This document shows positions 327 through 18,018 of a stretch of DNA of 64,000 nt, piece after piece. The position numbers and the translations under genes were made by a program. The notes under the pieces are model-generated. The model was not told where the DNA came from, did no database searches, and saw nothing but the letters and a program-made list of their open reading frames with translations. Origin of the DNA: Myroides fluvii (GTDB lineage Bacteria; Bacteroidota; Bacteroidia; Flavobacteriales; Flavobacteriaceae); assembly GCF_009792295.1 (NCBI RefSeq), contig NZ_CP039934.1, positions 2,748,501 through 2,812,500 on the forward strand, given 5' to 3'. Each line of letters starts with the position of its first letter. Positions within the stretch are counted from its first letter, which is position 1.

Positions 327-1259
327 ATGAAAAGAAGAAACACAATAAAGCAGGTCTTGATGTGTGTGTTAGGTTTGTTGAGTTTACAACACGTTTCCGC
401 ACAGCAAGATCCTCAATATACGCAGTATATGTATAATCCTGCCTCGATCAACCCTGCTTATTCAGGGAGTGTGAATCACTTGCAACTCTTTGGGTTGTAT
501 CGCACCCAGTGGGTAGGATTGGAAGGAGCTCCAAAAACAGCTTATCTCTCAGCTACAACGCCGCTTACCGATAACGGATTAGGCTTGGGCGTTCACTTTA
601 AGAACGACCACTTAGGGGTGATGGATGACAACAGTTTATCCCTTGATTTGGCCTATTCAGTAGATCTAGACCACCAGTATAAATTGGCTTTTGGACTAAA
701 GGGAACAGGGTCTTTGTTGGATGTAAATTACGATAAGTTATATATCTATGATGGCACAGATCCCATCTCAGAAAACAATATAAAAAATAAGTTTTCAGCA
801 AACGTAGGGGCTGGGGTTTACCTTTATTCGGATAAAGCCTATGTTGGATTATCTGCACCTATGATTTTCTCTAGCACGATTTACAACGATAGCGATTATC
901 AAGTAATGAAAGAGAAAGTTCATTTTTACGCAATGGGAGGGTATGTCTTTGATATCAATCGCGATATCCAGTTCAAACCCGCTGCTTTGGTAAAAGTAAT
1001 GACCGGTGCTCCTTTGCAGGTAGATGTTACGGCTAACTTCTTGTTCTACAATAAATTTACTTTAGGAGCGGCGTATCGTTGGGATGCCGCTGTAAGTGGT
1101 TTGGCTGGATTCCAAATCACGGACGGATTATTTGTAGGGTATACGTACGATGCGGATACCAGCAAACTCTCGAAGTACAACTCGGGATCTCACGAGATCT
1201 TTATGAAGTTTGAACTATTTAATAACAACAGGAGAAAAGTCGCACCTCGATTTTTCTAA
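327..1259 (+). CDS. PorP/SprF family type IX secretion system membrane protein
   Basis: A 310-residue outer-membrane beta-barrel protein of the PorP/SprF family. Members assist secretion or surface attachment of type B T9SS cargo, as SprF does for SprB in Flavobacterium johnsoniae (family knowledge). The sequence has a signal peptide ending near VSAQ, then the family hallmark QQDPQYTQYMYNP and NPAYSGS, and alternating beta strands to a C-terminal RKVAPRFF. It lies between a type B cargo gene (11 bases upstream) and an OmpA-family gene (12 bases downstream), a typical cargo-PorP-OmpA arrangement. A close paralogue is at 17077-18018. Length is normal for the family. Confidence 0.93.
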   Translation: MKRRNTIKQVLMCVLGLLSLQHVSAQQDPQYTQYMYNPASINPAYSGSVNHLQLFGLYRTQWVGLEGAPKTAYLSATTPLTDNGLGLGVHFKNDHLGVMDDNSLSLDLAYSVDLDHQYKLAFGLKGTGSLLDVNYDKLYIYDGTDPISENNIKNKFSANVGAGVYLYSDKAYVGLSAPMIFSSTIYNDSDYQVMKEKVHFYAMGGYVFDINRDIQFKPAALVKVMTGAPLQVDVTANFLFYNKFTLGAAYRWDAAVSGLAGFQITDGLFVGYTYDADTSKLSKYNSGSHEIFMKFELFNNNRRKVAPRFF

Positions 1260-1271
1260 AGACCAGCCTAT

Positions 1272-3221
1272 ATGATTAGAAAAAATATATACCAAGGCCT
1301 TTTGTTTTGTTTCTTGTTTTCCAGCCTCGTTGGGTTTGGTCAAACCAGAAAAGAACGCAAAGCCGATCGCGAATACGATAATTTTGCCTATGTTGATGCC
1401 ATCAAGTTTTATGAAGGTATGGTAGAAAAAGGCGAGATCAATACCTCTATTTTGAGTAAGCTAGGGGATTCTTACTATTTCAATGGCAAATTTGTCGAAG
1501 CCCATAGATGGTACGATGAGTTGTTTCAAGGGAGTTATCCCGATAAGAATATAGGGGCTTTAGACAAAGAGTATTACTACCGCTATGGTCAAACGCTCAA
1601 AGCGGTGAATCAGTTGGAAAAAGCAGATGCTGTATTACAGGAGTTTGCTGCATTAAAAGCGAATGATTCTAGAGCACAACTGTTTATCACCAATAGTGAA
1701 TTGGTAGAGCAAACCATTGCCTCTTCTCGTTTTACGCTGATGAATCTCTCTACCAATAGTGAATCTTCAGATTATGGTGCTTCTTTGTTGGGCAATCGCT
1801 TGATTTTTACTTCTGCACGAGCGAGTGAAGAGATGAAAAACAAAGTACACAATTGGACCAATCAACGCTATACCAAGTTGTATGCAACGACTATTGGCGA
1901 GGACGGTAGTTTTGGAGATCCCGTGTTATTTGCCAAGGAAATTGCCTCGAAAGAGCTCAATATGGGAACTGCTATTTTTACCAAAGATGGCAATACGATG
2001 TATTTTACCAGTAACAACGGTAGTGTAGGAGGTAAAAAAGCCCAATACAACGAGGAGGAGTCTTCCTTGTTGAAGATTTATAAAACCCGCAAACAAAGCG
2101 ATGGCACTTGGGGAACCCTAGAAGCCTTGCCCTTTAACCTGGATGGATATAACACGGCGCACCCGGCGTTGACACCCGATGAGAAGTGGATGTATTTCGT
2201 TTCGGATCGCCAAGGAAGTTTAGGTCAGTCGGATTTGTTTCGCGTGAGTCTCTACGATACGGGACGCTTTGGAACCGTAGAACACTTGGGCGATAAAGTC
2301 AATACCGCAGGACGAGAAACCTTTCCTTTTATCTCGAGTGATTATATGTTGTACTTTTCCAGTGATGGTCATCCTGGATTTGGAGGGTTGGACTTGTACA
2401 AAGTAAAAATCAATCGCGACGGACAACTGGGTGTTCCGACCAACTTAGGATCGGATATCAACAGTGCGTTTGACGACTTTGGTATTTATATTGACGCAGC
2501 CACGAAAAAAGGATTTGTGAGCTCCAATAAAACGGGTGGCGTAGGCAGTGATGATGTTTATCTATTTGTGGAAAAGCCTTGTTTCCAAATGATTGACGGA
2601 GTGGTCACAGACCTTGAATCACACAAGGCAATTAGCCATGTAGAAATTGCTATTTACGACCACATGGAAAAACAAATCGATGTTGTACAGGCGGATGAAC
2701 TGGGGTATTACCATTCAGAAAAGTTAGCCTGCGGACAGCAATATCGCATTCACGTGAGTAAAGAAGGCTATTTTGCGAAAGATTTCACTGTAGCGGTGGA
2801 TCGAAAAATCCAACAACGCGTGAATATCGAATTGGAAATCATCGAAAAAGGAGATGACCTATTCAAGAAATTGAAACTCTCTCCGATTCACTTTGATTTC
2901 GACTCCTCGACGATTCGTCCAGATGCGGCCATTGAATTAATGAAGGTAGTCAATACCATGCTAGAGCATCCGAAATTGGAGCTTGATGTTCGATCGCATA
3001 CGGATAGCCGTGGAGATGATGGATACAACATGAAGTTATCTGAACGCCGTGCGCAAGCAACCATCCAATGGATGATTAGCAAAGGAGTGAAGGCCAGTCG
3101 ATTAACTGGACGTGGTTATGGAGAAAGCCAGCTAGTCAATCACTGTAGCAATAAAGTAGACTGTACAGATGAACAGCACGAAGAAAACCGTCGAAGTGAG
3201 TTTATTATTTTGAATTTATAA
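1272..3221 (+). CDS. OmpA family protein with TPR-like and PD40 repeats
   Basis: A 649-residue secreted envelope protein. After a signal peptide ending near VGFGQ there is a TPR-like helical part (about residues 25-150), then WD40-like PD40 strands (about 170-430, with motifs such as TPDEKWMYFVSDR and YFSSDGHPGFGG). A carboxypeptidase-regulatory-like beta domain follows (about 440-515), then a C-terminal OmpA peptidoglycan-binding domain (about 535-649) with IHFDFDSSTIRPDA and HTDSRG. This architecture resembles PorE-like and other OmpA proteins that accompany PorP/SprF genes and may tether a T9SS-linked barrel to the cell wall (inference). It is the last gene of its operon; a hairpin terminator follows. 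The second PorP copy at 17077 has no such partner in this window. Confidence 0.9.
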   Translation: MIRKNIYQGLLFCFLFSSLVGFGQTRKERKADREYDNFAYVDAIKFYEGMVEKGEINTSILSKLGDSYYFNGKFVEAHRWYDELFQGSYPDKNIGALDKEYYYRYGQTLKAVNQLEKADAVLQEFAALKANDSRAQLFITNSELVEQTIASSRFTLMNLSTNSESSDYGASLLGNRLIFTSARASEEMKNKVHNWTNQRYTKLYATTIGEDGSFGDPVLFAKEIASKELNMGTAIFTKDGNTMYFTSNNGSVGGKKAQYNEEESSLLKIYKTRKQSDGTWGTLEALPFNLDGYNTAHPALTPDEKWMYFVSDRQGSLGQSDLFRVSLYDTGRFGTVEHLGDKVNTAGRETFPFISSDYMLYFSSDGHPGFGGLDLYKVKINRDGQLGVPTNLGSDINSAFDDFGIYIDAATKKGFVSSNKTGGVGSDDVYLFVEKPCFQMIDGVVTDLESHKAISHVEIAIYDHMEKQIDVVQADELGYYHSEKLACGQQYRIHVSKEGYFAKDFTVAVDRKIQQRVNIELEIIEKGDDLFKKLKLSPIHFDFDSSTIRPDAAIELMKVVNTMLEHPKLELDVRSHTDSRGDDGYNMKLSERRAQATIQWMISKGVKASRLTGRGYGESQLVNHCSNKVDCTDEQHEENRRSEFIILNL

Positions 3222-3290
3222 TTCATTTTTAAGCATAATTGTGGCGTATTGATCCAATTGCATGAGCGTATTTTTATACATTCAAAACGA

Positions 3291-3330
3291 AATAGAGGGT
3301 GCTTCTTAGAAGTATCCTCTATTTTATTTT
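3291..3330 (+). terminator. Rho-independent terminator after the OmpA gene
   Basis: AATAGAGG pairs with CCTCTATT, and the stem continues inward through G-T wobbles and CTTC/GAAG around a TTA loop. A T-rich run follows. It lies 70 bases after the OmpA stop codon. Confidence 0.75.
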
Positions 3331-4309
3331 ACTCACTTTTTTGTGCTTGATACGTTTTGATTGGCTTATACACAAAAGAAAAAATTACGCTTAACTGATT
3401 TGGAATTTATTAGTGACAGCAAGAACGGTGGCGTTCATTTTATAAGAACCTGTTTGTTTAATCAGGTGTTTAAGTGTATAACCAAGGATTTTCGGTGGTA
3501 TACAACGCAGTAGGGAGTGATGTGTTTTATCTCCACATTTTGTTTAGTCCAATACTTGAGGATTGCTTTATTTTTTATTCGAACTTCTTGTTATTCGAAC
3601 TTCTTATAAAGAATAAAAAAAGATGAAAACTAAACTAAACTTATTTTTTTAGAGCAAATAGTTTGATCAAAAGTTCGCTTTTATTAAACTATTATTGAAA
3701 AAATAATGTTTTTTATAAAAATCTAACTAATTGATATGCATTGTGTTGGTTTCTTTTTTTGACAAAAAGTTTCAAATTGAGATTTTTATGGCACGATAGT
3801 TGATTTTTTGAGAGCATCAGAAAAACATATACTATTCAAATAATGTTGGTGACTGAAAAAGAATATAAAGGATGTTAGAAAAGAGGTAGTGTAATTAGTA
3901 AGTTGTTGTTTTTGTACGCCATAAAAATTAGAGATAGAGGCTTAGTTAACGTTTTTTTCATTTTTAATGTCTTTTTAAGTTGAAAAGGGAGTATAAATAA
4001 ATGATAAAAATCAAATTTTGGTTAGAACTCGCTAAGAACGCAGAATGTGATTATGTTGATTTCATTTTTACAAAATGAATTTTAGTATTCTGCTTTAATG
4101 AAGGTAGTGTGGATAAAAAGTGATTTTACGCGAATAATGATGTTTTTATTGAATTACTTTATATGTTGGTTATTTTTAATTTAAATAATTATTTGTCTTG
4201 TTTTTTGTTATTAAAATAAAGAATATTCAAAAATAAAATAGTATTGTTAAATTATGTTTAATCTGTATAAATTTGAAGTGTTTAAAAAATAATAAAAAAT
4301 AATAAAATT
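3331..4309. other. Long AT-rich intergenic region and leader
   Basis: No convincing gene lies here. The stretch holds the sigma-54-like block at 3777-3843 and then about 470 very AT-rich bases before the start codon of the giant repeat protein. If transcription starts about 12 bases after the TTGA box, the mRNA has an unusually long leader of about 495 bases. A short open frame of 11 codons (3844-3879) starts right after the ATTCAAATA motif; I do not call it a gene. Confidence 0.6.
3777..3843 (+). promoter_or_regulatory. Sigma-54-like promoter block 1
   Basis: The block reads TTGAGA (3777), TGGCACGATAGTTGA (3789-3803) and ATTCAAATAA (3834-3843). GG and GA are separated by ten bases, the spacing of sigma-54 -24/-12 elements, although the -12 dinucleotide is GA, not GC. 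The same block with identical internal spacing is found at 12341 and 15415. It precedes the giant repeat gene. Use by RpoN is inferred, not shown. Confidence 0.6.
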
Positions 4310-7300
4310 ATGATAAGAAAAATAGTTCCCTTAATCGTGTTGGTGATGAGTGGTTCTGCAATGGCTCAAGTAGGTATTGGAACACCAAAAGCAAATAGCT
4401 CAGCTCAATTAGATATTGTATCTACTGAGAAAGGAGTATTGTTACCGCGTGTTAAATTAGTAGCAATTGACGATCACTCTGTTATTAAAGGAGATATTGT
4501 GGAGAGTTTATTGGTTTACCATATTGGGAACTCTAATTTGAAAGCTGGATTTTATTATTGGAAATCAAATGTTTGGACACCTTTACTTTCGGGTGAGATG
4601 ATTATTGACAGAAAGAATAACACTTTTACTATTGGAGTGGATCCAAGTAATGGTAAGGAATCTTTAATTATTACTGATACTGAGAATCATAGCGTTTATT
4701 TAGCTGTTACAGAATTGGCCAACAACAAAACCTTTGTTGAAAACATCGCCAATAACAACGACTTCATTACTAAGTTAGGCGATAATCTGGATTTCATCAA
4801 CCACATCACCAACAACGAGCAGTTTATAGAAGATATTGTTAACATGCTAAAGGGAACCTACGGAAATGTAAGTTACGATGTTGCGAATAACTCATTCTAT
4901 TATTTTGATGAAAACGAGCAAAGACAAGAGATTGATTGGGAAGCATTAAATACGGTAAACGTAAGCTTTACGTTGAATAACGATCAATTGATTGTAACGG
5001 ATTCAGCAGGAAATAGCGTTTATTTAGCTGTTACAGAATTGGCCAACAACAAAACCTTTGTTGAAAACATCGCCAATAACAACGACTTCATTACTAAGTT
5101 AGGCGATAACATTGATTTCATCAACCACATCACCAACAACGAGCAGTTTATAGAAGATATTGTTAACATGCTAAAGGGAACCTACGGAAACGTAAGTTAC
5201 GATGTTGCGAATAACTCATTCTATTATTTTGATGAAAACGAGCAAAGACAAGAGATTGATTGGGAAGCGTTAAATACGGTCAACGTAAGCTTTACGTTGA
5301 ACAACGATCAGTTGATTGTAACGGATTCAGCAGGGAATAGCGTTTATTTAGCTGTTACAGAATTGGCCAACAACAAAACCTTTGTTGAAAACATCGCCAA
5401 TAACAACGACTTCATTACTAAGTTAGGCGATAACATTGATTTCATCAATCACATCACCAACAACGAGCAGTTTATAGAAGATATTGTTAACATGCTAAAG
5501 GGAACCTACGGAAATGTAAGTTACGATGTTGCGAATAACTCATTCTATTATTTTGATGAAAACGAGCAAAGACAAGAGATTGATTGGGAAGCGTTAAATA
5601 CGGTAAACGTTAGCTTTACGTTGAACAACGATCAGTTGATTGTAACGGATTCAGCAGGGAATAGCGTTTATTTAGCCGTTACAGAATTGGCCAACAACAA
5701 AACCTTTGTTGAAAACATCGCCAATAACAACGACTTCATTACTAAGTTAGGCGATAACATTGATTTCATCAATCACATCACCAACAACGAGCAGTTTATA
5801 GAAGATATTGTTAACATGCTAAAGGGAACCTACGGAAACGTAAGTTATGATGTTGCGAATAACTCATTCTATTATTTTGATGAAAACGAGCAAAGACAAG
5901 AGATTGATTGGGAAGCGTTAAATACGGTCAACGTAAGCTTTACGTTGAAAAACGATCAGTTGATTGTAACAGATTCAGCAGGAAATAGCGTTTATTTAGC
6001 TGTTACAGAATTGGCCAACAACAAAACCTTTGTTGAAAACATCGCCAATAACAACGACTTCATTACTAAGTTAGGCGATAACATTGATTTTATCAACCAC
6101 ATCACCAACAACGAGCAGTTTATAGAAGATATTGTTAACATGCTAAAGGGAACCTACGGAAACGTAAGTTATGATGTTGCGAATAACTCATTCTATTATT
6201 TTGATGAAAACGAGCAAAGACAAGAGATTGATTGGGAAGCGTTAAATACGGTCAACGTAAGCTTTACGTTGAACAACGATCAATTGATTGTAACGGATTC
6301 AGACGGGAATAGCGTTTATTTAGCTGTTACAGAATTGGCTAACAACAAAACCTTTGTTGAAAACATCGCCAATAACAACGACTTCATTACTAAGTTAGGC
6401 GATAACATTGATTTCATCAATCACATCACCAACAACGAGCAGTTTATAGAAGATATTGTTAACATGCTAAAGGGAACCTACGGAAACGTAAGTTACGATG
6501 TTGCGAATAACTCATTCTACTACTTTGATGAAAACGAGCAAAGACAAGAGATTGATTGGGAAGCGTTAAATACGGTCAACGTAAGCTTTACCTTGAACAA
6601 CGATCAGTTGATTGTAACGGATTCAGACGGGAATAGCGTTTATTTAGCCGTTACAGAATTGGCTAACAACAAAACCTTTGTTGAAAACATCGCCAATAAC
6701 AACGACTTCATTACTAAGTTAGGCGATAACATTGATTTCATCAATCACATCACCAACAACGAGCAGTTTATAGAAGACATTGTTAACATGCTAAAGGGAA
6801 CCTACGGAAATGTAAGTTACGATGTTGCGAATAACTCATTCTATTATTTTGATGAAAACGAGCAAAGACAAGAGATTGATTGGGAAGCGTTAAATACGGT
6901 CAACGTTAGCTTTACGTTGAACAACGATCAGTTGATTGTAACGGATTCAGCAGGGAATAGCGTTTATTTAGCTGTTACGGAATTGGCCAACAACAAAACC
7001 TTTGTTGAAAACATCGCCAATAACAACGACTTCATTACTAAGTTAGGCGATAATCTGGATTTCATCAATCACATCACCAACAACGAGCAGTTTATAGAAG
7101 ATATTGTTAACATGCTAAAGGGAACCTACGGAAACGTAAGTTACGATGTTGCGAATAACTCATTCTATTATTTTGATGAAAACGAGCAAAGACAAGAGAT
7201 TGATTGGGAAGCATTAAATACGGTAAACGTTAGCTTTACGTTGAACAACGATCAGTTGATTGTAACGGATTCAGACGGGAATAGCGTTTATTTAGCTGTT

Positions 7301-9352
7301 ACAGAATTGGCCAACAACAAAACCTTTGTTGAAAACATCGCCAATAACAACGACTTCATTACTAAGTTAGGCGATAACCTGGATTTCATCAACCACATCA
7401 CCAACAACGAGCAGTTTATAGAAGATATTGTTAACATGCTAAAGGGAACCTACGGAAATGTAAGTTATGATGTTGCGAATAACTCATTCTACTACTTTGA
7501 TGAAAACGAGCAAAGACAAGAGATTGATTGGGAAGCGTTAAATACGGTCAACGTAAGCTTTACGTTGAACAACGATCAATTGATTGTAACGGATTCAGAC
7601 GGGAATAGCGTTTATTTAGCTGTTACAGAATTGGCCAACAACAAAACCTTTGTTGAAAACATCGCCAATAACAACGACTTCATTACTAAGTTAGGCGATA
7701 ATCTGGATTTCATCAATCACATCACCAACAACGAGCAGTTTATAGAAGATATTGTTAACATGCTAAAGGGAACCTACGGAAACGTAAGTTACGATGTTGC
7801 GAATAACTCATTCTATTATTTTGATGAAAACGAGCAAAGACAAGAGATTGATTGGGAAGCATTAAATACGGTAAACGTTAGCTTTACGTTGAACAACGAT
7901 CAGTTGATTGTAACGGATTCAGACGGGAATAGCGTTTATTTAGCTGTTACGGAATTGGCCAATAACAAAACCTTTGTTGAAAACATCGCCAATAACAACG
8001 ACTTCATTACTAAGTTAGGCGATAATCTGGATTTTCAAACGATCATCAAGAATAATTCAGTCGAATCTACGCTTATTTTAACGGATACTACAACCAATGC
8101 CGATCAGGTGAAAAGTGGATTTGTATTTAATAATGGAAAAAACACAACCAATATAGCATTTGCCGAGACTTTAACTGCATTAGAAAAAGGAGTAGATGCC
8201 AATACAATGATTGAGTATTACTTTGTGGACGAAACAGGCAATCGCGATGATGTTGTGATTACAGTAACCCAAGATATCATCAACGATTTTGGAACTATCA
8301 TCAATGACAATAGAGTTAAAGACTTATTGGAACAATTTATTACTATAGCAACAGGCGATGTATCAGTGATTCGCGATAATGGTGATATCATCATCAAAAC
8401 CGCTACCAATAGCTTCAATATTACAGAGGAAATTAAAGCGAAAGAAACTAATACAGTTTTAATTCCTTCAGTAAGAGGTGTTTATGTGTATAAGAATGAA
8501 GAGGCTATCAAAACAGGTGGAGCTGGAGTTACAATCAATATAGTTTCGGATGTTCAAAACAACTTCGAAGAAATCATTAAAAACGAGGAAGTTAAAAATA
8601 TATTGAATAAATATATCACCGAAGAGGTAGAGGGCAATGTTACGTATAAAGATGACAAGTTCTATGTAACTATTAAGAATGGAGATGTATATGAAACAAA
8701 AGAAATTACATTAAAAGAATTAGTTCAAAATAACGGAGAAACGCTTGAAACTGACGGGGTTATAGGGGTAACAGTACATGGAGGAACTACTTCGAATAGC
8801 GTAGAAAAAGCAGTGTTAAAATCGCTGAAGTTATCGTTAAACCAGGATGTTATCACAACAGAACATATCAAAGATGGTACGATTCAACCAATTGACTTGG
8901 CAGAGGCTAATGCCAATCAAGTATTAGTTACGGGAGCAGACAAAAAACCAGTATGGAAAGATCAAGGAAAAATGGCTCCTCAATTCTTCTATATGCCAGC
9001 TGTTATTTTTGATACTGCTGCAACGGGAACTGCAACACGTGATTTATACGAAGAATATGTGAACCAGTTTACTGGTGGATCCGCCAATTCAAACAGTCCT
9101 GTACCGTATCCTATTTCACATGGACCAGCAGGTACAACACCAATACAATATGGTGGTGGAATTGTTGGAAGTGCTGGAGCACCAGCAGATATTGCAGTGT
9201 TTGAAAATCATGAATTGTACTATTATGTGACATATTTTGATGAGGATGTTTTTGAAAATCTTGTTATTAGTGCAGATGGAAAATTAACTTATACTGTAAA
9301 AGCAGGCGCTACGCCAAGCTCATATATGAATATTGTATTTGTAATCAAGTAA
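4310..9352 (+). CDS. Giant surface protein with ten 108-residue tandem repeats
   Basis: A 1680-residue exported protein of unknown function. It has a signal peptide (MIRKIVPLIVLVMSGSAMAQ), then the N-terminal signature VGIGTPKANSSAQLDI...GVLLPRV, seen at the start of many large Bacteroidota surface proteins. Residues 127-1206 are ten near-identical 108-residue repeats, followed by a partial eleventh that breaks off after GDNLDF. Two diverged copies follow (roughly residues 1320-1475). The last 120 residues form a separate domain with FYMPAVIFDT, ELYYYVTYFDEDVFENL and SYMNIVFVIK, a type of C-terminal domain I recognise from other flavobacterial repeat proteins. No classical type A or B T9SS domain is visible. 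It is preceded by a sigma-54-like block and a long leader. It is probably a surface filament, adhesin or matrix protein (inference). Confidence 0.9.
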   Translation: MIRKIVPLIVLVMSGSAMAQVGIGTPKANSSAQLDIVSTEKGVLLPRVKLVAIDDHSVIKGDIVESLLVYHIGNSNLKAGFYYWKSNVWTPLLSGEMIIDRKNNTFTIGVDPSNGKESLIITDTENHSVYLAVTELANNKTFVENIANNNDFITKLGDNLDFINHITNNEQFIEDIVNMLKGTYGNVSYDVANNSFYYFDENEQRQEIDWEALNTVNVSFTLNNDQLIVTDSAGNSVYLAVTELANNKTFVENIANNNDFITKLGDNIDFINHITNNEQFIEDIVNMLKGTYGNVSYDVANNSFYYFDENEQRQEIDWEALNTVNVSFTLNNDQLIVTDSAGNSVYLAVTELANNKTFVENIANNNDFITKLGDNIDFINHITNNEQFIEDIVNMLKGTYGNVSYDVANNSFYYFDENEQRQEIDWEALNTVNVSFTLNNDQLIVTDSAGNSVYLAVTELANNKTFVENIANNNDFITKLGDNIDFINHITNNEQFIEDIVNMLKGTYGNVSYDVANNSFYYFDENEQRQEIDWEALNTVNVSFTLKNDQLIVTDSAGNSVYLAVTELANNKTFVENIANNNDFITKLGDNIDFINHITNNEQFIEDIVNMLKGTYGNVSYDVANNSFYYFDENEQRQEIDWEALNTVNVSFTLNNDQLIVTDSDGNSVYLAVTELANNKTFVENIANNNDFITKLGDNIDFINHITNNEQFIEDIVNMLKGTYGNVSYDVANNSFYYFDENEQRQEIDWEALNTVNVSFTLNNDQLIVTDSDGNSVYLAVTELANNKTFVENIANNNDFITKLGDNIDFINHITNNEQFIEDIVNMLKGTYGNVSYDVANNSFYYFDENEQRQEIDWEALNTVNVSFTLNNDQLIVTDSAGNSVYLAVTELANNKTFVENIANNNDFITKLGDNLDFINHITNNEQFIEDIVNMLKGTYGNVSYDVANNSFYYFDENEQRQEIDWEALNTVNVSFTLNNDQLIVTDSDGNSVYLAVTELANNKTFVENIANNNDFITKLGDNLDFINHITNNEQFIEDIVNMLKGTYGNVSYDVANNSFYYFDENEQRQEIDWEALNTVNVSFTLNNDQLIVTDSDGNSVYLAVTELANNKTFVENIANNNDFITKLGDNLDFINHITNNEQFIEDIVNMLKGTYGNVSYDVANNSFYYFDENEQRQEIDWEALNTVNVSFTLNNDQLIVTDSDGNSVYLAVTELANNKTFVENIANNNDFITKLGDNLDFQTIIKNNSVESTLILTDTTTNADQVKSGFVFNNGKNTTNIAFAETLTALEKGVDANTMIEYYFVDETGNRDDVVITVTQDIINDFGTIINDNRVKDLLEQFITIATGDVSVIRDNGDIIIKTATNSFNITEEIKAKETNTVLIPSVRGVYVYKNEEAIKTGGAGVTINIVSDVQNNFEEIIKNEEVKNILNKYITEEVEGNVTYKDDKFYVTIKNGDVYETKEITLKELVQNNGETLETDGVIGVTVHGGTTSNSVEKAVLKSLKLSLNQDVITTEHIKDGTIQPIDLAEANANQVLVTGADKKPVWKDQGKMAPQFFYMPAVIFDTAATGTATRDLYEEYVNQFTGGSANSNSPVPYPISHGPAGTTPIQYGGGIVGSAGAPADIAVFENHELYYYVTYFDEDVFENLVISADGKLTYTVKAGATPSSYMNIVFVIK
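4688..8034 (+). repeat. Ten tandem 324-bp repeats plus a partial eleventh, inside the giant gene
   Basis: Units begin at 4688, 5012, 5336, 5660, 5984, 6308, 6632, 6956, 7280 and 7604, all exactly 324 bases. An eleventh begins at 7928 and diverges near 8034. The coded units differ only at L/I before DFINH, A/D before GNS, and one N/K; almost all other base changes are synonymous. Units 8 and 10 are nearly the same at the synonymous sites I compared, which suggests shuffling by recombination or gene conversion. Confidence 0.97.
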
Positions 9353-9365
9353 TCAAAACACAAAA

Positions 9366-9391
9366 AACCTTAGTTGTTTTTACAGCTAAGG
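9366..9391 (+). other. Hairpin between giant repeat gene and first DUF11 gene
   Basis: ACCTTAGTTG pairs with CAGCTAAGGT (one G-T pair) around a six-base loop. No T run follows, so it looks less like a terminator than a partial attenuator or an mRNA end-protecting stem. It lies in the 71-base gap before 9424, where no sigma-54-like block is seen. Confidence 0.5.
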
Positions 9392-9423
9392 TTAGTCTAA
9401 AAACAAAAGTGTATTGATCAAAA

Positions 9424-12006
9424 ATGAAAAGCATGAAAAATAAAAAATACAATATTGGAAGTAAATTACAAGTTTTGTTCTTGTTTGTATTTTGCCTGTT
9501 CTTACATATAGGCGAAATACGAGCAGAGGGATCTAAAGATTTATATACCGAAAATGCAAAGGGTGGTAGAGCCTATTTAAGAGCTACTAATCGAGTAGCC
9601 TCTCAGTTTCCTTTCTCTAATAACGGAGAACATTTTGTGTATGCTGTGGAAGGAGAAGTTATTGCTTTGGCATCCGATGCACAAATAGGAACGGTTAAAA
9701 AAATAAGTTTGTATGCACCCAATGGGAGCGAAGTTACGCCTGCACGAAATAATGTAAATACAGGGAATATTCCCAATCGAGCTGCGGAACTTGCAGGACC
9801 AGGGCTTCCAGGGCAAGCTAGGAATAACAATGAATATGAAGCGATTTATTATACCGTTCCGGTAGGAGGTAGTGGAATATATCGAGTAACTTTTTTAGGA
9901 AATGCTAGAACACCAGATACGGATTATTTAGGATATGGTTATTCCCCAGCAATAGCATGGCCTACCGCAATGACGAGTAATTATTTAATTGCATGGGATA
10001 TTTCTGTTGCGAGGCAAATTGGTGGAACTTGGAATTGGCTTAAAGGACGTGTTTTTACCACACAGATGACAATGTTTAATGCCTCCTATCCACATAATAC
10101 GAGTCCTACATTCTTACCTAATAGTGGATTCTATGGAAAATTCATTGTATTGACTAAAGATGGGTATGTGTATAAGGTGGATAACAATGGCAATCAAGGA
10201 ATGGCATTTACTTTTATGGTGAATAATCAAGGGTTTCATAAAGTAGGAGATCCTAAAACATCATCGTATCAAAGTATTCCTGCTAGTACGGCCGCTCAGG
10301 TGCAGAATAGATACCACGATCCTCGAAAGGCAGATACGGATTTCGTAACGACCCAAAAAATATTCTATAACCTACCAGATAGCACCATGCCTGAAGAGGC
10401 TGTTGGAGCATTAGCTGGAGGAAAAACCTGGTTAAGAGTACAAGAAAAAAAACTGAATGTAGATGATATTAGAGTAGAAGGAGCAGAAGGAAGTTTGAAC
10501 CAAGTTGGAAATAAAGGAGCTTACATCAAATTTACGAATGAAATTGATGGGAATTACTATATCACAATCAGTCCTAAACCAGGAAATTATTTTAAAGAAC
10601 GCCTCATACAAGGGCCAACTATCATCGGTGAGAATACAATCTTCTGGGATGGAAAAGATGGAGATGGTCTAGTAATATCCCCAGGGTTGGTAGATCTAAA
10701 CGTCGATCTAAAGCTTCGCGGGGCGGAAGTGCATTTCCCGTATTTAGATATCGAATTAAATGAATTCGGAATTATTATTGAGCTACTGTCAACGGATTTA
10801 CAATCGGTGCGATCGGATATTGTCTTCTGGGATGATACCCTAATAGGTAACGGAGGAGGAAGTATGGGATCGAAGTCAAATCCTAGAAATGCAAGTCATA
10901 CTGTTTTGCCAGAGGGTACTTCTAGTAACCTTAATGGACATATATGGGGGCTTGGATCCAATAATACGAATGGTACTTTTGGGGATAATCAAGGAATAGA
11001 TACTTGGACCTTTATCAAAGGAGATGCTATTTCCGTAGGCATTGATGTTGATATTAAAGTAGCTGATTTAGAAGTAGTATCGGTTGTACCTGATAAAACA
11101 ATTCTACACAAAAATGAAGAGATTATCTATACCGTTAAGGTTAAAAACAATGGACCCAGTGATGTAAAAGATGCTGTTTTTACCTTTGATATTCCAAGTG
11201 GTTTTGATCCAGTGCGAGCAACGTTCATTGCAACTACTTGTGGTACAGAAAGTCAAGTAATAGCATATGATAGTACCAATTATGCTTATACTTCAAAGCT
11301 TAATTTGTTAAATGGTTGTGAGATTACGTATGAAATCACGATGAAGGCCATTAGCCCTATACTTGGAACTATTGCAGTAGAAGCAGCCACCTTACGTCCA
11401 AAAGACGTGGTAGATCCTGATGCAACGAATACAGATCCTTTGGTACCACCTACTAATGCACAGTACGAATGTGATCATAATGGTTTGGGAGTTCCTTGTA
11501 ATAATATAAAAACAAATACCGAGGTTAAATACAGTGATGCAGCATTTATCCTGATTAAGGATGGACGTTTTAATGATGATGATAGCAACGGTTCAGCACA
11601 AGCAGGAGAAACACTAACCTATATTTTAAATGTAACGAATACGGGAAGAGCTAAAATTGAAGACATCGTAGTCAGTGACCCTCTTTTAGGAGGAGTTGTT
11701 ACGGTCAATCCTGTAAAGAGTAAAAATACAGATGCTGTTTTGGATGCAGATGAAACGTGGACGTATACTTTAACGTATACCTTAACGCCTGCAGATATTC
11801 AAAATGAAGGTGTTTATAACCAAGCAAAGGTTGAGGGGAAAGATAGTATTACGGGTGAAATCATTGAAATATCATCAATACCAACGGTGCCACTGACGCC
11901 AGGAGATCTTGGATATGACCCAACTAGACCAAATCATACTTTTGTTCCTTTGATTGTTGGTAAAATATTGATATCTAATCCGATGATTCGTCAAAGGATG
12001 AAGTAG
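9424..12006 (+). CDS. DUF11-domain surface protein A
   Basis: An 860-residue exported protein. The signal peptide ends before AEGSKDLY; the start could also be the ATG at 9436. Residues from about 36 to 540 form a large domain I cannot name, with conserved blocks such as GGRAYLRA, FLPNSGFYGKF and SKSNPRNASHTV. A DUF11 beta-sandwich follows (about 545-650, with YTVKVKNNGPSDV), then a second DUF11/DUF7507-like repeat (about 700-820, with LTYILNVTNTG and WTYTLTYTLTPADI). The C-terminus is NHTFVPL...NPMIRQRMK and lacks a recognisable T9SS sorting domain. It is probably read together with the giant repeat gene 71 bases upstream. A paralogue of the same architecture is at 12524-15088. The proposed surface location is inferred from the DUF11 family and the locus. 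Confidence 0.85.
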   Translation: MKSMKNKKYNIGSKLQVLFLFVFCLFLHIGEIRAEGSKDLYTENAKGGRAYLRATNRVASQFPFSNNGEHFVYAVEGEVIALASDAQIGTVKKISLYAPNGSEVTPARNNVNTGNIPNRAAELAGPGLPGQARNNNEYEAIYYTVPVGGSGIYRVTFLGNARTPDTDYLGYGYSPAIAWPTAMTSNYLIAWDISVARQIGGTWNWLKGRVFTTQMTMFNASYPHNTSPTFLPNSGFYGKFIVLTKDGYVYKVDNNGNQGMAFTFMVNNQGFHKVGDPKTSSYQSIPASTAAQVQNRYHDPRKADTDFVTTQKIFYNLPDSTMPEEAVGALAGGKTWLRVQEKKLNVDDIRVEGAEGSLNQVGNKGAYIKFTNEIDGNYYITISPKPGNYFKERLIQGPTIIGENTIFWDGKDGDGLVISPGLVDLNVDLKLRGAEVHFPYLDIELNEFGIIIELLSTDLQSVRSDIVFWDDTLIGNGGGSMGSKSNPRNASHTVLPEGTSSNLNGHIWGLGSNNTNGTFGDNQGIDTWTFIKGDAISVGIDVDIKVADLEVVSVVPDKTILHKNEEIIYTVKVKNNGPSDVKDAVFTFDIPSGFDPVRATFIATTCGTESQVIAYDSTNYAYTSKLNLLNGCEITYEITMKAISPILGTIAVEAATLRPKDVVDPDATNTDPLVPPTNAQYECDHNGLGVPCNNIKTNTEVKYSDAAFILIKDGRFNDDDSNGSAQAGETLTYILNVTNTGRAKIEDIVVSDPLLGGVVTVNPVKSKNTDAVLDADETWTYTLTYTLTPADIQNEGVYNQAKVEGKDSITGEIIEISSIPTVPLTPGDLGYDPTRPNHTFVPLIVGKILISNPMIRQRMK

Positions 12007-12114
12007 TAGGGGGCTCAGGCTCTAATGCCGAAGACCCTCTCAACAGAGGAAAGATGTGTATTGTTTTGAATCGATTCGATTTTTAAACACAGCATAAGGT
12101 GATTTTTTCATTTG

Positions 12115-12150
12115 GAAAAAGGTTAGCTCTTAGAGCTAGCCTTTTTTGTT
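12115..12150 (+). terminator. Terminator after DUF11 protein A
   Basis: AAAAGGTTAGCT pairs with AGCTAGCCTTTT (one G-T pair) around a short loop and is followed by six Ts. It separates the giant-repeat/DUF11-A unit from DUF11-B. Confidence 0.85.
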
Positions 12151-12340
12151 GATTTTACACCTAAAAAAAAGAGGATAACAAACATATAATACTCAATTGT
12201 ATTAGAAGTAAAACTCCGTTTTTTTAGAAAGAGGAGGGATGATGGAGTGCTCTTTTTTAGTTGACTTAGAAGTGTTCATTAGTTTGATTTCTAGTGTTTT
12301 GTGATTTAAAAAAAATCTTTTTAGGGATAGATGGTAAATA

Positions 12341-12407
12341 TTGAGATTTTTTTGGCACAATACTTGATATTTTGAGAACACTAAAATTTGTTTAAGAATT
12401 CAAATAA
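12341..12407 (+). promoter_or_regulatory. Sigma-54-like promoter block 2
   Basis: TTGAGA at 12341, TGGCACAATACTTGA at 12353-12367, and ATTCAAATAA at 12398-12407. All offsets match block 1 and block 3. The putative start site would give a leader of about 145 bases before the start codon at 12524. Confidence 0.6.
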
Positions 12408-12523
12408 CCGTGTAGCCTAAAGTAGTACGATAAGCGAACATATAGCCAGAAAGAGTTTAGTAAAAACATAGATTAGTGGTTGGTTTAAAAATAAAAAAGT
12501 ATAACGAGAAAAATTGAAAAGGA

Positions 12524-15088
12524 ATGATCAGTAAAAAGCATAGGATTGGTAGAAAAATTCAAGTACAATGTATTGTTGTACTTTGTCTCTTGCTAAATAT
12601 AGGAAATGCTTGGGCAGAAGGCTCGAAAGATTTATATCCCGTTGATGCTAAAGGAGGAAGAGCCTATCTAAGAGCTTCAACTACAGAATCTGCCGTTTAT
12701 CCTTATCCAACTTTGGGAACCCATTATGTCTATGCAGAAGAAGGAGAGCAAATTACATTAGCCTCAAGTGCTCAAAGTGCATTAAATAAGAGGATTTTAT
12801 TATATGCACCTGATGGTAATGAAGTGACACTTGTTTTCGAAAAGAATAATGGATTTATTTATAAAAGAGAGGTGGAAGTAGCAGGCCCAAGACTACCTGG
12901 TCAACGAGCAGGAGAGAGTAGGTATATCCCCATTTATTATACAGTACCTGCAGGAGGTGCTGGAGTGTATCGAGTTGAATTTATTAGTTCAAGTGACAAG
13001 ACCACAGGAAATGTATTGGGCATGGAGTATACCGCAGCCGCAGCCGCGTTTAATGTAGGTGGAGGGAATTATTTAAGTGCTTGGGATATTTCAGTAGCGA
13101 AAAAAATAGATAATAGTTGGAATTGGGTAACCGGACGTGTGTTTACTACCGCTATGGCTTTGCATAATCCTTCCTATAATAAACAAAATCAATTTCTTCC
13201 CAATAGTGGATTTTATGGGGTATTTAAAGTTTTGACCAAAGATGGGTATGTCTATAGTGTAGATAATAACGGAAGCCAGGGAATTGCTTTTACCTTTATG
13301 GTAAATAACCAAGGATTTCATAAAATAGGAGATCCTAATACTCCTGCTTATGAAAGTGTTCCATCAACTAAAGCGCTCGATATTCAAAGTCGATATCATG
13401 ATCCGCGTAAAGCCGATACAGATGTTGTGGTAACTCAAAAAATATTTTACAATGTTCCAGATGACAAGATGCCCGAACAAGCCGTAGCAGCTATGGATGG
13501 AGGAAAAACTTGGTTAAAAGTACAAGAAAAACAACTGCATGTAACAGATCTTAGGGTAGAAGGAGCTGAAGGAGGTGCAGAAAATCAAGGAGGAAAAGGA
13601 GCTTATATCCGGTTTACAAATGAAAATGGAGGAGAATATTCCATTCGCATTAAACCTAAAAATGGGAATACGTTTGCAGAACGCGTATTACAGGGAGTAA
13701 CAATCATAGGGAACAATAAAATTTATTGGGATGGAAAAGATGGAACAGGTCGCAATGTTTCCGCAGGAAGGGTTGAGATGCAGGTCAATTTACAATTGCA
13801 TGGAGGAGAAGTGCATTTTCCTTATATCGATATGGAGCTCAATGAAAACGGAATTATTATTGAATTACTTTCGAAGGACACACAATCCGTGCGTTCAGAT
13901 AAAGTATATTGGAATGACAGTACAATAGGTGAGGGAGGAGGAAATTTTGGATCGAAATCTAATCCGCGTAATGCCAGTCATACCGTCATACCAGAAGGTA
14001 TTTCAAGTAGAGTGAATGGTCATATTTGGGGAGTGGCAACAGATAAGACGTCAAGTACTTTTGGTGATGAGCATGGAATTGATACTTGGACTTTTATTAA
14101 AGGAGATGTGGTTTCCACTAGCTTTGATGTACAGATTAAAGAGGCAGATTTAGAAGTGGTTGCCGTCCAATCTGATAAAGAAAAAGTAAAGCAAGGGGAA
14201 GAAGTTACGTATACAATTAGAGTGAAAAATAACGGGCCTGATGCGGTCGAGAATGCTACATTTTCATTTCAAATTCCTCTGGGTTTTGAACCAGTACAAA
14301 CAACAGGGAATACAGGAACGTGTGGAAGTGAAAGTCAAGCACTCGCCTTTGACCAAGAAAAAAACAAGTATACCAGCCAAGTAAACCTGGCAAATCAATG
14401 TGAGATTACTTATACTATTACGATAAAAGTAAACAATCCCACTGTTGGACCTATTGCTGTGGAAGCAGCTATTTTGCGTCCAACAGATGTAATGGATCCC
14501 GATGCAACCAATCAAGAGGAAAATAGGCCCCCTACCGACCCTCATTATGAATGTGAACATAATGGTTTGGGAATACCTTGTAACAATATAAAAACAAATA
14601 CAGCCGTTCGCTATAGCGAAGCCTCATTTATCTTGATTAAAGAGGGGTATTTTAAAGACATAAATAACGATGGCTTTGCTCAAGTAGGAGAAATGATAAC
14701 CTATGTTGTAAAAGTAACAAATACAGGAAAAACAAACATTTCGGATATCAAGGTAATTGACCCGCTTTTAGGTGGGGTCATAACGGAAATCCCTGAAAAA
14801 AGTATCAATGCTGACGACGTTTTGCAGGTGGGAGAAACGTGGGTATATACGCTTACTTATATCCTAACTCCTGCCGATATAGCCCAAAAAGGAGTGTATA
14901 ACCTTGCAACAGTAAAAGGCGTAGACACAGTATTGGATGAAGAAATTGAAACAACTTCTGTACCTACTCAGCCATTAACCCCAACAGACCCAGGATATGA
15001 TCCCAATCGACCAAATCACACTTTTGTTCCCTTAAAAGTTAATCAATGGATGATTGCCAATCCTATGGTTCGTCAAAGAATAAGATAA
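12524..15088 (+). CDS. DUF11-domain surface protein B
   Basis: An 854-residue paralogue of the protein at 9424-12006, alike along its whole length. It has a signal peptide ending before AEGSKDLY, the same unnamed N-terminal domain (GGRAYLRAS, FLPNSGFYGVF, SKSNPRNASHTV), a DUF11 domain (about 545-650, YTIRVKNNGPDAV) and a second DUF11/DUF7507-like repeat (about 695-815). The C-terminus NHTFVPL...NPMVRQRIR matches the tail of protein A, and no T9SS sorting domain is visible. It has its own sigma-54-like block and its own terminator, so it can be expressed alone. The pair most likely arose by duplication; they may be alternative or co-assembling subunits (inference). Confidence 0.85.
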   Translation: MISKKHRIGRKIQVQCIVVLCLLLNIGNAWAEGSKDLYPVDAKGGRAYLRASTTESAVYPYPTLGTHYVYAEEGEQITLASSAQSALNKRILLYAPDGNEVTLVFEKNNGFIYKREVEVAGPRLPGQRAGESRYIPIYYTVPAGGAGVYRVEFISSSDKTTGNVLGMEYTAAAAAFNVGGGNYLSAWDISVAKKIDNSWNWVTGRVFTTAMALHNPSYNKQNQFLPNSGFYGVFKVLTKDGYVYSVDNNGSQGIAFTFMVNNQGFHKIGDPNTPAYESVPSTKALDIQSRYHDPRKADTDVVVTQKIFYNVPDDKMPEQAVAAMDGGKTWLKVQEKQLHVTDLRVEGAEGGAENQGGKGAYIRFTNENGGEYSIRIKPKNGNTFAERVLQGVTIIGNNKIYWDGKDGTGRNVSAGRVEMQVNLQLHGGEVHFPYIDMELNENGIIIELLSKDTQSVRSDKVYWNDSTIGEGGGNFGSKSNPRNASHTVIPEGISSRVNGHIWGVATDKTSSTFGDEHGIDTWTFIKGDVVSTSFDVQIKEADLEVVAVQSDKEKVKQGEEVTYTIRVKNNGPDAVENATFSFQIPLGFEPVQTTGNTGTCGSESQALAFDQEKNKYTSQVNLANQCEITYTITIKVNNPTVGPIAVEAAILRPTDVMDPDATNQEENRPPTDPHYECEHNGLGIPCNNIKTNTAVRYSEASFILIKEGYFKDINNDGFAQVGEMITYVVKVTNTGKTNISDIKVIDPLLGGVITEIPEKSINADDVLQVGETWVYTLTYILTPADIAQKGVYNLATVKGVDTVLDEEIETTSVPTQPLTPTDPGYDPNRPNHTFVPLKVNQWMIANPMVRQRIR

Positions 15089-15166
15089 TAATCAGGTGCA
15101 CGACCTGATAGGTGATACAATTGAAACTGGATTACCTAAAATTAAAGTGATTTATTGTAGTGTAAG

Positions 15167-15202
15167 AGAGGATTAGTTTTTAAAACTACTCCTCTTTTTT
15201 TT
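15167..15202 (+). terminator. Terminator after DUF11 protein B
   Basis: AGAGGATTAGTTTT pairs with AAAACTACTCCTCT (one mismatch), followed by a run of eight Ts. Confidence 0.85.
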
Positions 15203-15414
15203 ACTCCATGAAAAGGTGAAAATCGCTGTGAAACACCAAGATTAAACGTATTGTTTTCAAATGAATTAAACCGCGGAATGAGTGCTTGAAGATCTTTTGT
15301 ATAGCTAAAAATCTTTTTTTTATAAAAATACTTAAAATTTTAATATAACTTAAAATACTGATTGTTAGTTTTTTGTGTTTTGTTTTTGGCTTAATTCTAA
15401 TAAAAAAGCCAATA

Positions 15415-15481
15415 TTGAGATTTTTTTGGCACAATGCTTGATATTTTGTGAATAGTGGTTTTTGTTTAAATATTCAAATAA
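15415..15481 (+). promoter_or_regulatory. Sigma-54-like promoter block 3
   Basis: TTGAGA at 15415, TGGCACAATGCTTGA at 15427-15441, and ATTCAAATAA at 15472-15481, with the same offsets as blocks 1 and 2. It precedes the type B cargo and PorP/SprF pair by about 315 bases; a 40-codon frame lies between. Confidence 0.6.
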
Positions 15482-15766: not shown

Positions 15767-17074
15767 ATGAGAAAAAGAAAAATTTCCACCGCATTAGTAG
15801 CAAGTTGTACGAGTATACTATTATATGGGCAAGCTCCTTCCGTAATTACTAATGAGGGATTATTTATTGTATCTCCTGGAGATTTAGTATCCTTTGAGGG
15901 AACGTTCGAAAATGTAGAATCGGGCCATGTTACTAATGATGGAACCGTGGTTTACTTTCGCGACTTTATCAACAATGGATCGTATGGAATGACAGCCAAT
16001 AAAACGACTTCTACAACGATATTTACGGTTGTTGGGAACCCACAAGAGGCAAAGAAAATTTCAGGAAATCAACTGGCTTCCTTTTATAATATAGCATTTG
16101 ATAGCCCTGTAGATCAGGTTGCTTTTGATTTGAAAAATAATATTGAAGCTTCGGGAATCGTTGATTTTCAACAGGGAATCATCCTCGTGGATTCAACGTA
16201 TAATCCCAAAACTAAAGTATCTCATGGAATGCTGACGTTCAAGAAAGGAGCCAATGCGGTGAATGTAAGTGATGCTTCTCATGTTCGGGGGGCAATTGAA
16301 AAAATTGGGAATGATATCTTTACTTATCCTAGTGGAGATGAAGGAAAATATCGTCCTGCGCGTATTTCTGCTCCTAAAGAAGAAAATGCCGTTTTTGTTG
16401 GGCAATATGTATATCAGGATCCTGCTTTTTTTAAAGCGCGCCCTCATGCAGTGGGCGTTGTGAAAAAACTCAATGATCAAGAGTATTGGATTATCGAAAA
16501 GGGCAACGACAAACAAAGTGATGTCTTGTTGACCTTGAGTTGGGATGAATCCACAACCGCCCCTGACATCCTAACTAATCCCGAAGAAGAATTGCACATT
16601 GTTCGTTGGGATCCCAAACAGCAGTTATGGGTAGATGAAGGAGGGGTAGTGGATATGTCTACGAAAGAAGTAACAACCGTGGCTACAGTAAGAGGATATG
16701 GTTTTTTCACCTTAGCGGCTGTTAAGAAAGACTGGATGATAGAGGGTGATGTGGTGATTTACAACTTGGTAACGGCTAATGGCGATGGTAAAAATGACTA
16801 TTTTATCATTGAAAATATTCGAAATTATCCTAATAATAAAGTAGAAATTTTTAACCGTTGGGGGGCTCGTGTGTATGAAACTACGGGATATGATCCAAAA
16901 GGAGATGGCAGTAGCAATGTATTTAAAGGATATTCAGAAGGTAAGGTGACGATAGACAAAGGAACGAAACTCCCAAGCGGAACGTATTACTATGTTATTA
17001 CTTACGAATACAAAGATGCCAATGGAAGTCGAATGATTAAAAAGGCCGCGAATTTACACCTTGAAACCAATTAA
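15767..17074 (+). CDS. T9SS type B sorting-domain surface protein
   Basis: A 435-residue secreted protein. A signal peptide (MRKRKISTALVASCTSILLYGQ) is followed by about 300 residues of beta-rich sequence with no named domain (NEGLFIVSPGDLVSFEG, FTYPSGDEGKYRPA). The last 105 residues are a gliding-motility-associated type B T9SS domain with NGDGKNDYF, VEIFNRWG and SGTYYYVITYEY. That domain is nearly the same as the fragment at 1-315, so the two cargo genes are paralogues or share a recently copied tail. The stop codon is two bases before the PorP/SprF start, a strong sign of a coupled cargo-partner pair. Export by T9SS and surface attachment follow from the domain; the specific role is unknown. 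Confidence 0.9.
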   Translation: MRKRKISTALVASCTSILLYGQAPSVITNEGLFIVSPGDLVSFEGTFENVESGHVTNDGTVVYFRDFINNGSYGMTANKTTSTTIFTVVGNPQEAKKISGNQLASFYNIAFDSPVDQVAFDLKNNIEASGIVDFQQGIILVDSTYNPKTKVSHGMLTFKKGANAVNVSDASHVRGAIEKIGNDIFTYPSGDEGKYRPARISAPKEENAVFVGQYVYQDPAFFKARPHAVGVVKKLNDQEYWIIEKGNDKQSDVLLTLSWDESTTAPDILTNPEEELHIVRWDPKQQLWVDEGGVVDMSTKEVTTVATVRGYGFFTLAAVKKDWMIEGDVVIYNLVTANGDGKNDYFIIENIRNYPNNKVEIFNRWGARVYETTGYDPKGDGSSNVFKGYSEGKVTIDKGTKLPSGTYYYVITYEYKDANGSRMIKKAANLHLETN

Positions 17075-17076
17075 CA

Positions 17077-18018
17077 ATGAAAACCATGCAAAGAAAAAAA
17101 ATCATAAAAACAGCGATACTATTTAGTTTAAGTGTATTGAGTTTTCAACAAATAAACGCACAACAAGATCCACAATATACCCAGTACATGTATAATCCCG
17201 CAACCATCAACCCCGCTTATGCTGGAAGTGTAGATCGAGTGCAGATTTTTGGACAGTATCGCACTCAATGGGTAGGGCTAGAAGGAGCGCCTAAAACGAC
17301 TCATCTATCCGTAACGACTCCGCTGACAGATACGGGTTTGGGGATGGGTTTTCACTTTAAGAATGACCACTTAGGGGTAACAGATCAAAATAGCTTGGCT
17401 ATTGACTTAGCCTATACAGTGAATTTAAACTATGACTATAAATTAGCCTTCGGACTGAAAGGAGCAGGATCTCTCTTGGATGTGAATTACGATAAATTGC
17501 ATATTTACGATGGTACGGATCCTATTACCGAGAAAAATATCAGCAATAAATTCTCCGCAAATGTCGGAGCTGGGGTGTATTTATATTCAGATAAAGCCTA
17601 TGTAGGATTATCTGTTCCGATGATTTTGTCGAGTAATAGATACAATGATAAGGAGTATAAAATAATGAACGAAAAAGCGCACTTTTACTTGATGGGAGGT
17701 TATGTATTTGACTTGAATCACGAGATTCAGTTCAAACCCGCTGCTTTGGTTAAAGTCGTGCCGGGAGCACCATTGCAAGTAGATCTTACGGCGAATGTTC
17801 TGTTTTACGAGAAGTTTACCCTAGGTGCAGCCTATCGCTGGGATGCTGCTGTAAGTGGATTAGCAGGTTTTCAAGTGACAGATGGATTATTTGTCGGCTA
17901 TACATATGATGCAGATACAAGTAAATTAAAAAATTATCATTCGGGCTCTCATGAGATATTCATGAAGTTTGAACTCTCAAACAAAAAGAAGAGAAAAGTC
18001 GCCCCTCGATTTTTCTAA
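17077..18018 (+). CDS. PorP/SprF family type IX secretion system membrane protein, second copy
   Basis: A 313-residue beta-barrel protein closely similar to the one at 327-1259 along its full length. A signal peptide ends near INAQ; the hallmark QQDPQYTQYMYNP and NPAYAGS follow, and the end is RKVAPRFF. It starts two bases after the type B cargo stop codon and so is translationally coupled or nearly so. Unlike the first copy, no OmpA gene follows; a terminator and convergent genes do. It presumably serves the 15767 cargo (inference from SprF-SprB). Confidence 0.93.
   Translation: MKTMQRKKIIKTAILFSLSVLSFQQINAQQDPQYTQYMYNPATINPAYAGSVDRVQIFGQYRTQWVGLEGAPKTTHLSVTTPLTDTGLGMGFHFKNDHLGVTDQNSLAIDLAYTVNLNYDYKLAFGLKGAGSLLDVNYDKLHIYDGTDPITEKNISNKFSANVGAGVYLYSDKAYVGLSVPMILSSNRYNDKEYKIMNEKAHFYLMGGYVFDLNHEIQFKPAALVKVVPGAPLQVDLTANVLFYEKFTLGAAYRWDAAVSGLAGFQVTDGLFVGYTYDADTSKLKNYHSGSHEIFMKFELSNKKKRKVAPRFF

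Follow-up and report, generated by a model that had tools for sequence, protein, structure and literature searches.

A putative sigma-54-type promoter with an upstream ATTGAGA box precedes type IX secretion surface cassettes and CI-like regulator genes in Myroides-like bacteria

Introduction

In a 64,000-nucleotide stretch of the Myroides fluvii chromosome (NZ_CP039934.1, positions 2,748,501 to 2,812,500; hereafter the window), three units of genes for surface proteins are each preceded by the same sequence block. This raises the questions of whether the block is a promoter, which polymerase would read it, and whether it ties the units into one regulon. According to the original prediction, the block is a sigma-54-type (-24/-12) promoter of rigid internal spacing in a lineage that may tolerate GA at -12, and a conserved ATTCAAATAA near +20 may be an mRNA or regulator site.

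The sigma-54 consensus is TGGCACN5-7TTGCT; regulons have been described class by class, and the DnaK orthologous group belongs to a cluster enriched among the sigma-54 predictions for Flavobacteriia (PMC12316311). In Flavobacterium psychrophilum, DnaK has a sigma-54-type (SM4) promoter with a mapped start, and the remFG-sprCDBF operon, which encodes the giant adhesin SprB and SprF and whose start has been mapped, has sigma-54-type and SM5 promoters upstream, both confirmed by reporter mutagenesis (PMC9723704). Operons of F. johnsoniae combine a type B substrate, a SprF-like shuttle and a PorE-like protein (PMC12618676).

Results

A search of both strands of the window for the full pattern TTGAGA-N6-TGGCAC-N5-TTGA-N30-ATTCAAATAA gave exactly three matches, all on the plus strand (starts at 3777, 12341 and 15415) and none on the minus strand; the chance expectation for its 26 specified bases, given the base composition, is about 2e-10 over both strands. 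TGGCAC is found at 3789, 12353 and 15427, TTGA at 3800, 12364 and 15438, and ATTCAAATAA at 3834, 12398 and 15472; the distances of 12 and 11 bases originally ascribed to the block are start-to-start. The predicted triple occurrence with equal internal distances is thus borne out within the window. Allowing up to three mismatches in the 16 core bases gave three matches in the window, all exact, against 0.68 expected, and the rest of the 3.77 Mb genome contains no further core site at zero or one mismatch.

The first block, P1 (3776..3847, +), precedes a gene for a giant protein of 1680 aa built of near-identical repeats of ~100 aa (4310..9352, +), a putative adhesin, with the first DUF11/DUF7507 surface protein gene downstream of it (9424..12006, +; 860 aa). 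In P1, the ATTGAGA box occupies 3776-3782, the -24 element TGGCAC 3789-3794, the -12 element TTGA 3800-3803 and ATTCAAATAA 3834-3843, with +1 predicted at 3815. P2 (12340..12411, +), with TGGCAC at 12353-12358, TTGA at 12364-12367 and a predicted +1 at 12379, precedes the second DUF11/DUF7507 gene (12524..15088, +; 854 aa, 61% identity to the first copy). P3 (15414..15485, +), with TGGCAC at 15427-15432, TTGA at 15438-15441 and a predicted +1 at 15453, precedes a type B cargo/PorP-SprF pair: the gene for a cargo protein of 435 aa with a T9SS type B sorting domain (CHU_C; 15767..17074, +; TIGR04131, 38.6 bits, cut-off 35) is followed by that for a T9SS membrane protein of 313 aa of the PorP/SprF family (17077..18018, +; 277.4 bits, cut-off 90.55). 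As to DUF11 relatives elsewhere, that of Myroides sp. WP-1, the closest named relative identified, is 64% identical, and one at G098:C1:60519-63094, reported twice, near both ends of its contig, is broken by one TAA.

A terminator-like hairpin with a stem of 17 pairs (3289..3325, +) lies upstream of P1, after the OmpA/PD40 gene, and another with a stem of 15 pairs (12115..12147, +) separates the two DUF11 genes, so that a new transcript may start at P2; caution is due with both, as the region holds 10 such sites against 8.6 in shuffled sequence. From the second DUF11 gene to P3, a scan of the plus strand found no terminator-like hairpin. In related genomes, long inverted repeats stand before both the type B and the giant-gene block of G281 and before the type B block of G382. 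The hairpins before P1 and P2, together with these inverted repeats, make it plausible that the blocks begin transcripts.

A paralogous cassette lies just upstream of the window, consisting of a CI-like regulator gene, a giant gene and genes for two large proteins and a type B protein, and ends at the window start with a PorP/SprF-family gene (327..1259, +) and a gene for a PD40-OmpA protein (1272..3221, +), which, judged by its place, would be PorE-like. In this cassette, the giant gene (L127:4301) lacks its own block. Roughly 105-120 kb before the window start there is another paralogous cassette, the third, with DUF11, type B, PorP and OmpA genes (L134, L200; G000:C1:2612000-2645000), and the DNA examined there contains no block. 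The block-less giant gene and third cassette both count against a simple co-wiring of all cassettes and weigh against the promoter reading developed below.

For the relatives, a sequence-only profile of five blocks (P1 to P3, a fourth block of the same genome, P4, and one of WP-1) was used to scan 398 genus-level genomes with stricter filters, by which weak matches may be lost. After sorting by reading, 17 blocks in six genomes were accepted: 16 in five genomes (four in G000, three in G098, four in G281, three in G290 and two in G382) and a weaker match before a giant gene in G180 (L248). A match in G281 stands at the identical place to the WP-1 block, and the two were counted once. CI-like genes are the targets of eight blocks, type B cargo/PorP genes of five, giant adhesin-like genes of three and the second DUF11 gene of one; in G290, the target of the type B class is a PorP gene that follows the block with no type B gene between (L243:3016-3205). 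All 12 blocks outside the training set precede a CI-like or cassette gene, and four of these 12 are orthologues of P4. The expectation that surface-gene units share a promoter is supported by the nine blocks before surface genes; the other eight stand before the CI-like gene, seven of them beside a cassette.

The stated E-values are too optimistic for DNA this rich in AT, since 82 of the 398 genomes matched at E <=0.01 against about four expected. Nine weak matches were read: one is the G180 block, four (L246, L247, L249 and L253) have TGG-N8-TTG at a distance of 52-69 nt from the start of some other gene, and four (L245, L250, L251 and L252) lack TGG-N8-TTG. L245 (E 1.1e-5) outscored an accepted block (G290:C12, 2.3e-5), which means that the cut between blocks and other matches was made by reading. 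Three of the four other sites (L246, L247 and L249) are TTGA-type -24/-12 sites that, in other members of the genus, stand before genes of a single protein family whose starts resemble signal peptides.

The internal distances claimed to be rigid proved so only in the -24/-12 part. The TGG-to-TTG distance is 11 in 17/17 blocks, a count in which TGG-N8-TTG holds by construction because the script sought TGG-N-A-N6-TTG; in a model-based alignment of 16 blocks, these letters are identical and gap-free, and the 17th was confirmed by reading. Letters outside the script's pattern are invariant in all 17 as well (T at -30 to -28 and T at -18). The TTGAGA-to-TGG distance, by contrast with the claim, varies (12 in 15 blocks, 11 in one and 13 in one), as does that from TTG to the downstream CAAATAA word. 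Because the blocks share descent, they are not 17 independent events.

Our best reading, in which we have good though not full confidence, is that the block is a sigma-54-dependent (-24/-12) promoter preceded by an extra ATTGAGA (more generally, ATTGMGA) box at -38. This conclusion, drawn from sequence comparison, agrees with the promoter type originally predicted and is supported by GG at -24/-25 and TTG at -15 to -13 in the fixed TGG-N8-TTG arrangement in the 16 aligned blocks and the 17th, and by the protein complement of the genome. RpoN has one match in the genome (173.4 bits), with an intact RpoN box (ARRTVAKYRE) and a helix-turn-helix in which the STISRV stretch is preserved and which aligns without gaps to sigma-54 chains of known structure, and five of 13 PF00158 matches are strong sigma-54 activators. 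One of these five (receiver, AAA+ and Fis domains; 43901..45289, +) is encoded 28 kb past P3 and is a possible activator of the blocks.

Some observations weigh against the sigma-54 reading. The consensus GC at -13/-12 occurs in none of the 17 blocks, in which the -12 letter is A in 14, T in two, G in one and C in none. The predicted leaders of P1 and P3 are long, the blocks are related by descent, and no common upstream activator site was found in ten upstream regions of 304 nt, whose shared 7- and 8-base words did not exceed the largest of 50 shuffles.

The -12 letter can be compared with that at dnaK. In M. fluvii and its genus, the site TTGGCACAAAGATTGA, which precedes dnaK at G000:C1:278734-278749 (-) (L128), is listed across many genomes, with C at -12 in some. 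Among 12 dnaK loci looked at, the -12 element reads TTGA in eight, all reached by TTGA searches (TTGGCACAGTGATTGA among them), and TTGC in four, one reached by a TTGC search and three picked for their listed C form; loci chosen in this way, rather than drawn at random, establish the presence of both letters but not their frequencies. With both A and C present before dnaK in the genus, the lineage seems to tolerate GA at -12, as had been suggested, and we file the block as a sigma-54 variant rather than as a canonical member. Consistent with this view, TTGGCAC-N5-TTGA is followed by an ATG ORF within 200 nt at 15/30 examined genus loci (one per genome, eight of the 30 being dnaK) against a background of 5.6%. 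The corresponding value for TTGGCAC-N5-TTGC, also with one locus per genome, is 12/30 against 4.2%, and the TTGC sites also look real.

Counts of patterns against their reversed forms are less firm than the before-ORF test and the A/C exchange at dnaK. In 101 genus genomes, TTGGCAC-N5-TTGA occurs 312 times v 82 reversed and the TTGC form 98 v 87, a control that does not keep codon habits; our conclusions do not rest on these or the following counts. In a phylum sample of 198 genomes, TTGA v reversed gave 30 v 5 in the genus including M. fluvii itself (10 genomes), 29 v 5 in the family (9), 0 v 1 in the order (2) and 88 v 28 in the class (28), and 60 of the 149 remaining phylum-level rows gave 47 v 12, 75 v 29 and 21 v 5; for TTGC, the values were 13 v 11, 9 v 4, 0 v 2 and 46 v 44 from genus to class. 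As the TTGA excess also appears in the family, class and phylum rows, it is not special to the genus.

The fourth block of the genome, P4 (C1:2735409; two core mismatches), lies 13 kb upstream of the window, where the CI-like gene of the paralogous cassette (L127:2986-3624) follows it at 64 bases, counted from TGG to ATG. With the other blocks it shares the box upstream of -24, the spacing of -24 and -12 and some of the sequence that follows TTGA. The encoded protein has a Phage_CI_repr helix-turn-helix (45.2 bits, cut-off 22) and an S24 match below the cut-off (21.2 v 23.3), and at what we take to be the place of the S24 Ser-Met motif, all eight CI-like proteins, compared by eye, read Asn-Met. 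Its fold model is weak (pLDDT 66.8), the best match being LexA at E 3.8e-3 and none reaching 0.001. In the five genomes, the protein is 93-99% identical to the first, and the ~930 nt upstream of its gene (L127:2050-2985 and orthologues) are intergenic and of constant length. The block and the leader have 38/40 and 32/40 invariant columns, respectively, against 11-30/40 elsewhere in this region, which also contains a conserved island, AAATTTGCTTNATTGCACTTGAAG, ~370 nt before the block.

The association between block and CI-like genes has limits. Eight of the 14 CI-like copies with more than 55% identity in the five genomes carry the block, seven beside a cassette and one, in G290, with no neighbouring cassette (L244). 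Six have no block, one of which adjoins PorP and adhesin-like genes (L287). In 14 more distant copies, no TGG-N8-TTG was found in the preceding 160 nt.

These data bear on an alternative, which we consider unlikely, in which the CI-like regulator, or some other factor, uses the block as its operator, the -24/-12 likeness is incidental and transcription starts from another promoter. It would account for a box nearly as regular as the -24 element, for the block before the CI-like gene itself, and for the second TTGAGA copy of P1 and P2, 31 bases downstream of the first (3808 and 12372), with near copies in P3 and before the CI-like genes. However, that copy is missing from the type B cargo/PorP blocks of G281, G098, G382 and G290, and TGG-N8-TTG is among the least variable parts of the block and fits the known sigma-54 arrangement. 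Moreover, five CI-like paralogues elsewhere have the same KPNTLSSWK stretch, presumably the recognition helix, and no block, which also means that another family member could be the box binder.

A composite promoter-operator is conceivable, and we put it forward tentatively: a CI-like protein no longer capable of self-cleavage would bind ATTGAGA boxes flanking the RpoN site, one at -38 and, in several blocks, a second one 31 bases downstream, and, its own gene having the same promoter, would form a self-limiting switch of the type IX adhesin cassettes in Myroides-like bacteria.

The role proposed for ATTCAAATAA as a rigid +20 element was dropped, as the sequence is absent from 9/17 blocks (all eight before CI-like regulator genes and one before a giant gene) and the TTG-to-CAAATAA spacing varies from 31 to 38 in the eight blocks having that word. 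The presence of CAAATAA in 8/9 surface-gene blocks and the nearly invariant CI leader in five genomes would suit a separate RNA-level control element in the downstream half of the block, a reading that we regard as very improbable given this varying spacing, the lack of the word before CI-like genes and the absence of Rfam matches at gathering scores in the window and L127, including the region with AAATTTGCTTNATTGCACTTGAAG.

Even less credible, and rejected, are promoters of the Bacteroidota housekeeping type (TAnnTTTG) and of its SM5 relative (TAnnTTGY): the surroundings are AT-rich and P3 contains one TAnnTTGY, but TAnnTTTG is found within 60 bases from TGG in 0/17 blocks, and TAnnTTGY in 1/17.

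The faintest case is that for likeness of the three blocks merely through recent DNA copying, which the tandem DUF11 paralogues and the WP-1 arrangement (a contig starting inside the giant gene, a single DUF11 gene between giant and type B genes, and a block at the P3 place, L058:4421-4495) might favour, but which is refuted as a complete account by the 97% identity of the P2 and P3 cores against 33% and 30% immediately outside the block, in line with the differing flanks originally described, and by retention of blocks in six genomes; a common origin followed by selection is likely.

Discussion

The sigma-54 reading leads to the following model, in which RpoN dependence and start sites are inferred. 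A sigma-54-dependent promoter (-24 TGGYAM, -12 TTGA) with a conserved ATTGMGA box at -38 to -33 would mark type IX secretion surface cassettes and CI-like regulator genes in Myroides-like bacteria. An activator, perhaps one of the five, would open the RpoN polymerase at the blocks, and transcription would start 15 bases past the first T of TTG, giving leaders of 495 nt (P1), 145 nt (P2) and 314 nt (P3). The box would touch the upstream edge of the polymerase site, so that a protein bound there could compete with it for the site. With its gene preceded by the box and adjacent to cassettes, the CI-like protein is a natural candidate; we infer that it is the most likely occupant and that the common box ties the targets into one regulon. 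This points to a single small circuit controlling surface adhesins and not to a promoter class as yet undescribed.

The arrangement resembles that of remFG-sprCDBF in F. psychrophilum, where a -24/-12 promoter likewise stands before T9SS giant-adhesin genes with an SprF (PorP-family) gene, and the sigma-54-type promoters before DnaK and this operon support our reading; the starts of that operon were mapped and its promoter mutated (PMC9723704). Given that mutagenesis, a T9SS adhesin/SprF operon under sigma-54-type control has a precedent. What the present analysis adds is the extended ATTGAGA box and a connection with a CI-like regulator; neither the box nor a CI-like gene appears for remFG-sprCDBF in the available part of that paper. 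Among the matches listed for literature on rpoN and type IX secretion and on flavobacterial sigma54 promoters, no title or start of an abstract concerned the block or a CI-like link. The -24 element and the spacing follow the sigma-54 consensus, and chaperone genes are enriched among the predictions for Flavobacteriia, but the blocks have A (or T, G) at -12 where the consensus has C (PMC12316311).

If the model is correct, giant adhesins, DUF11 proteins and type B cargo/shuttle pairs would be tied to RpoN in a second flavobacterial lineage, and a candidate regulator would be named for these surface adhesin and cargo units. It also suggests that scans with a strict TTGC matrix would give some flavobacterial RpoN promoters too low a score.

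As to gene order, a cargo gene followed by a porP/sprF-like gene is also found in the F. johnsoniae operons, five of which contain a PorE homologue too (PMC12618676). Elsewhere in the window, a TamB-like gene adjoins an Omp85-family gene (36130-43474).
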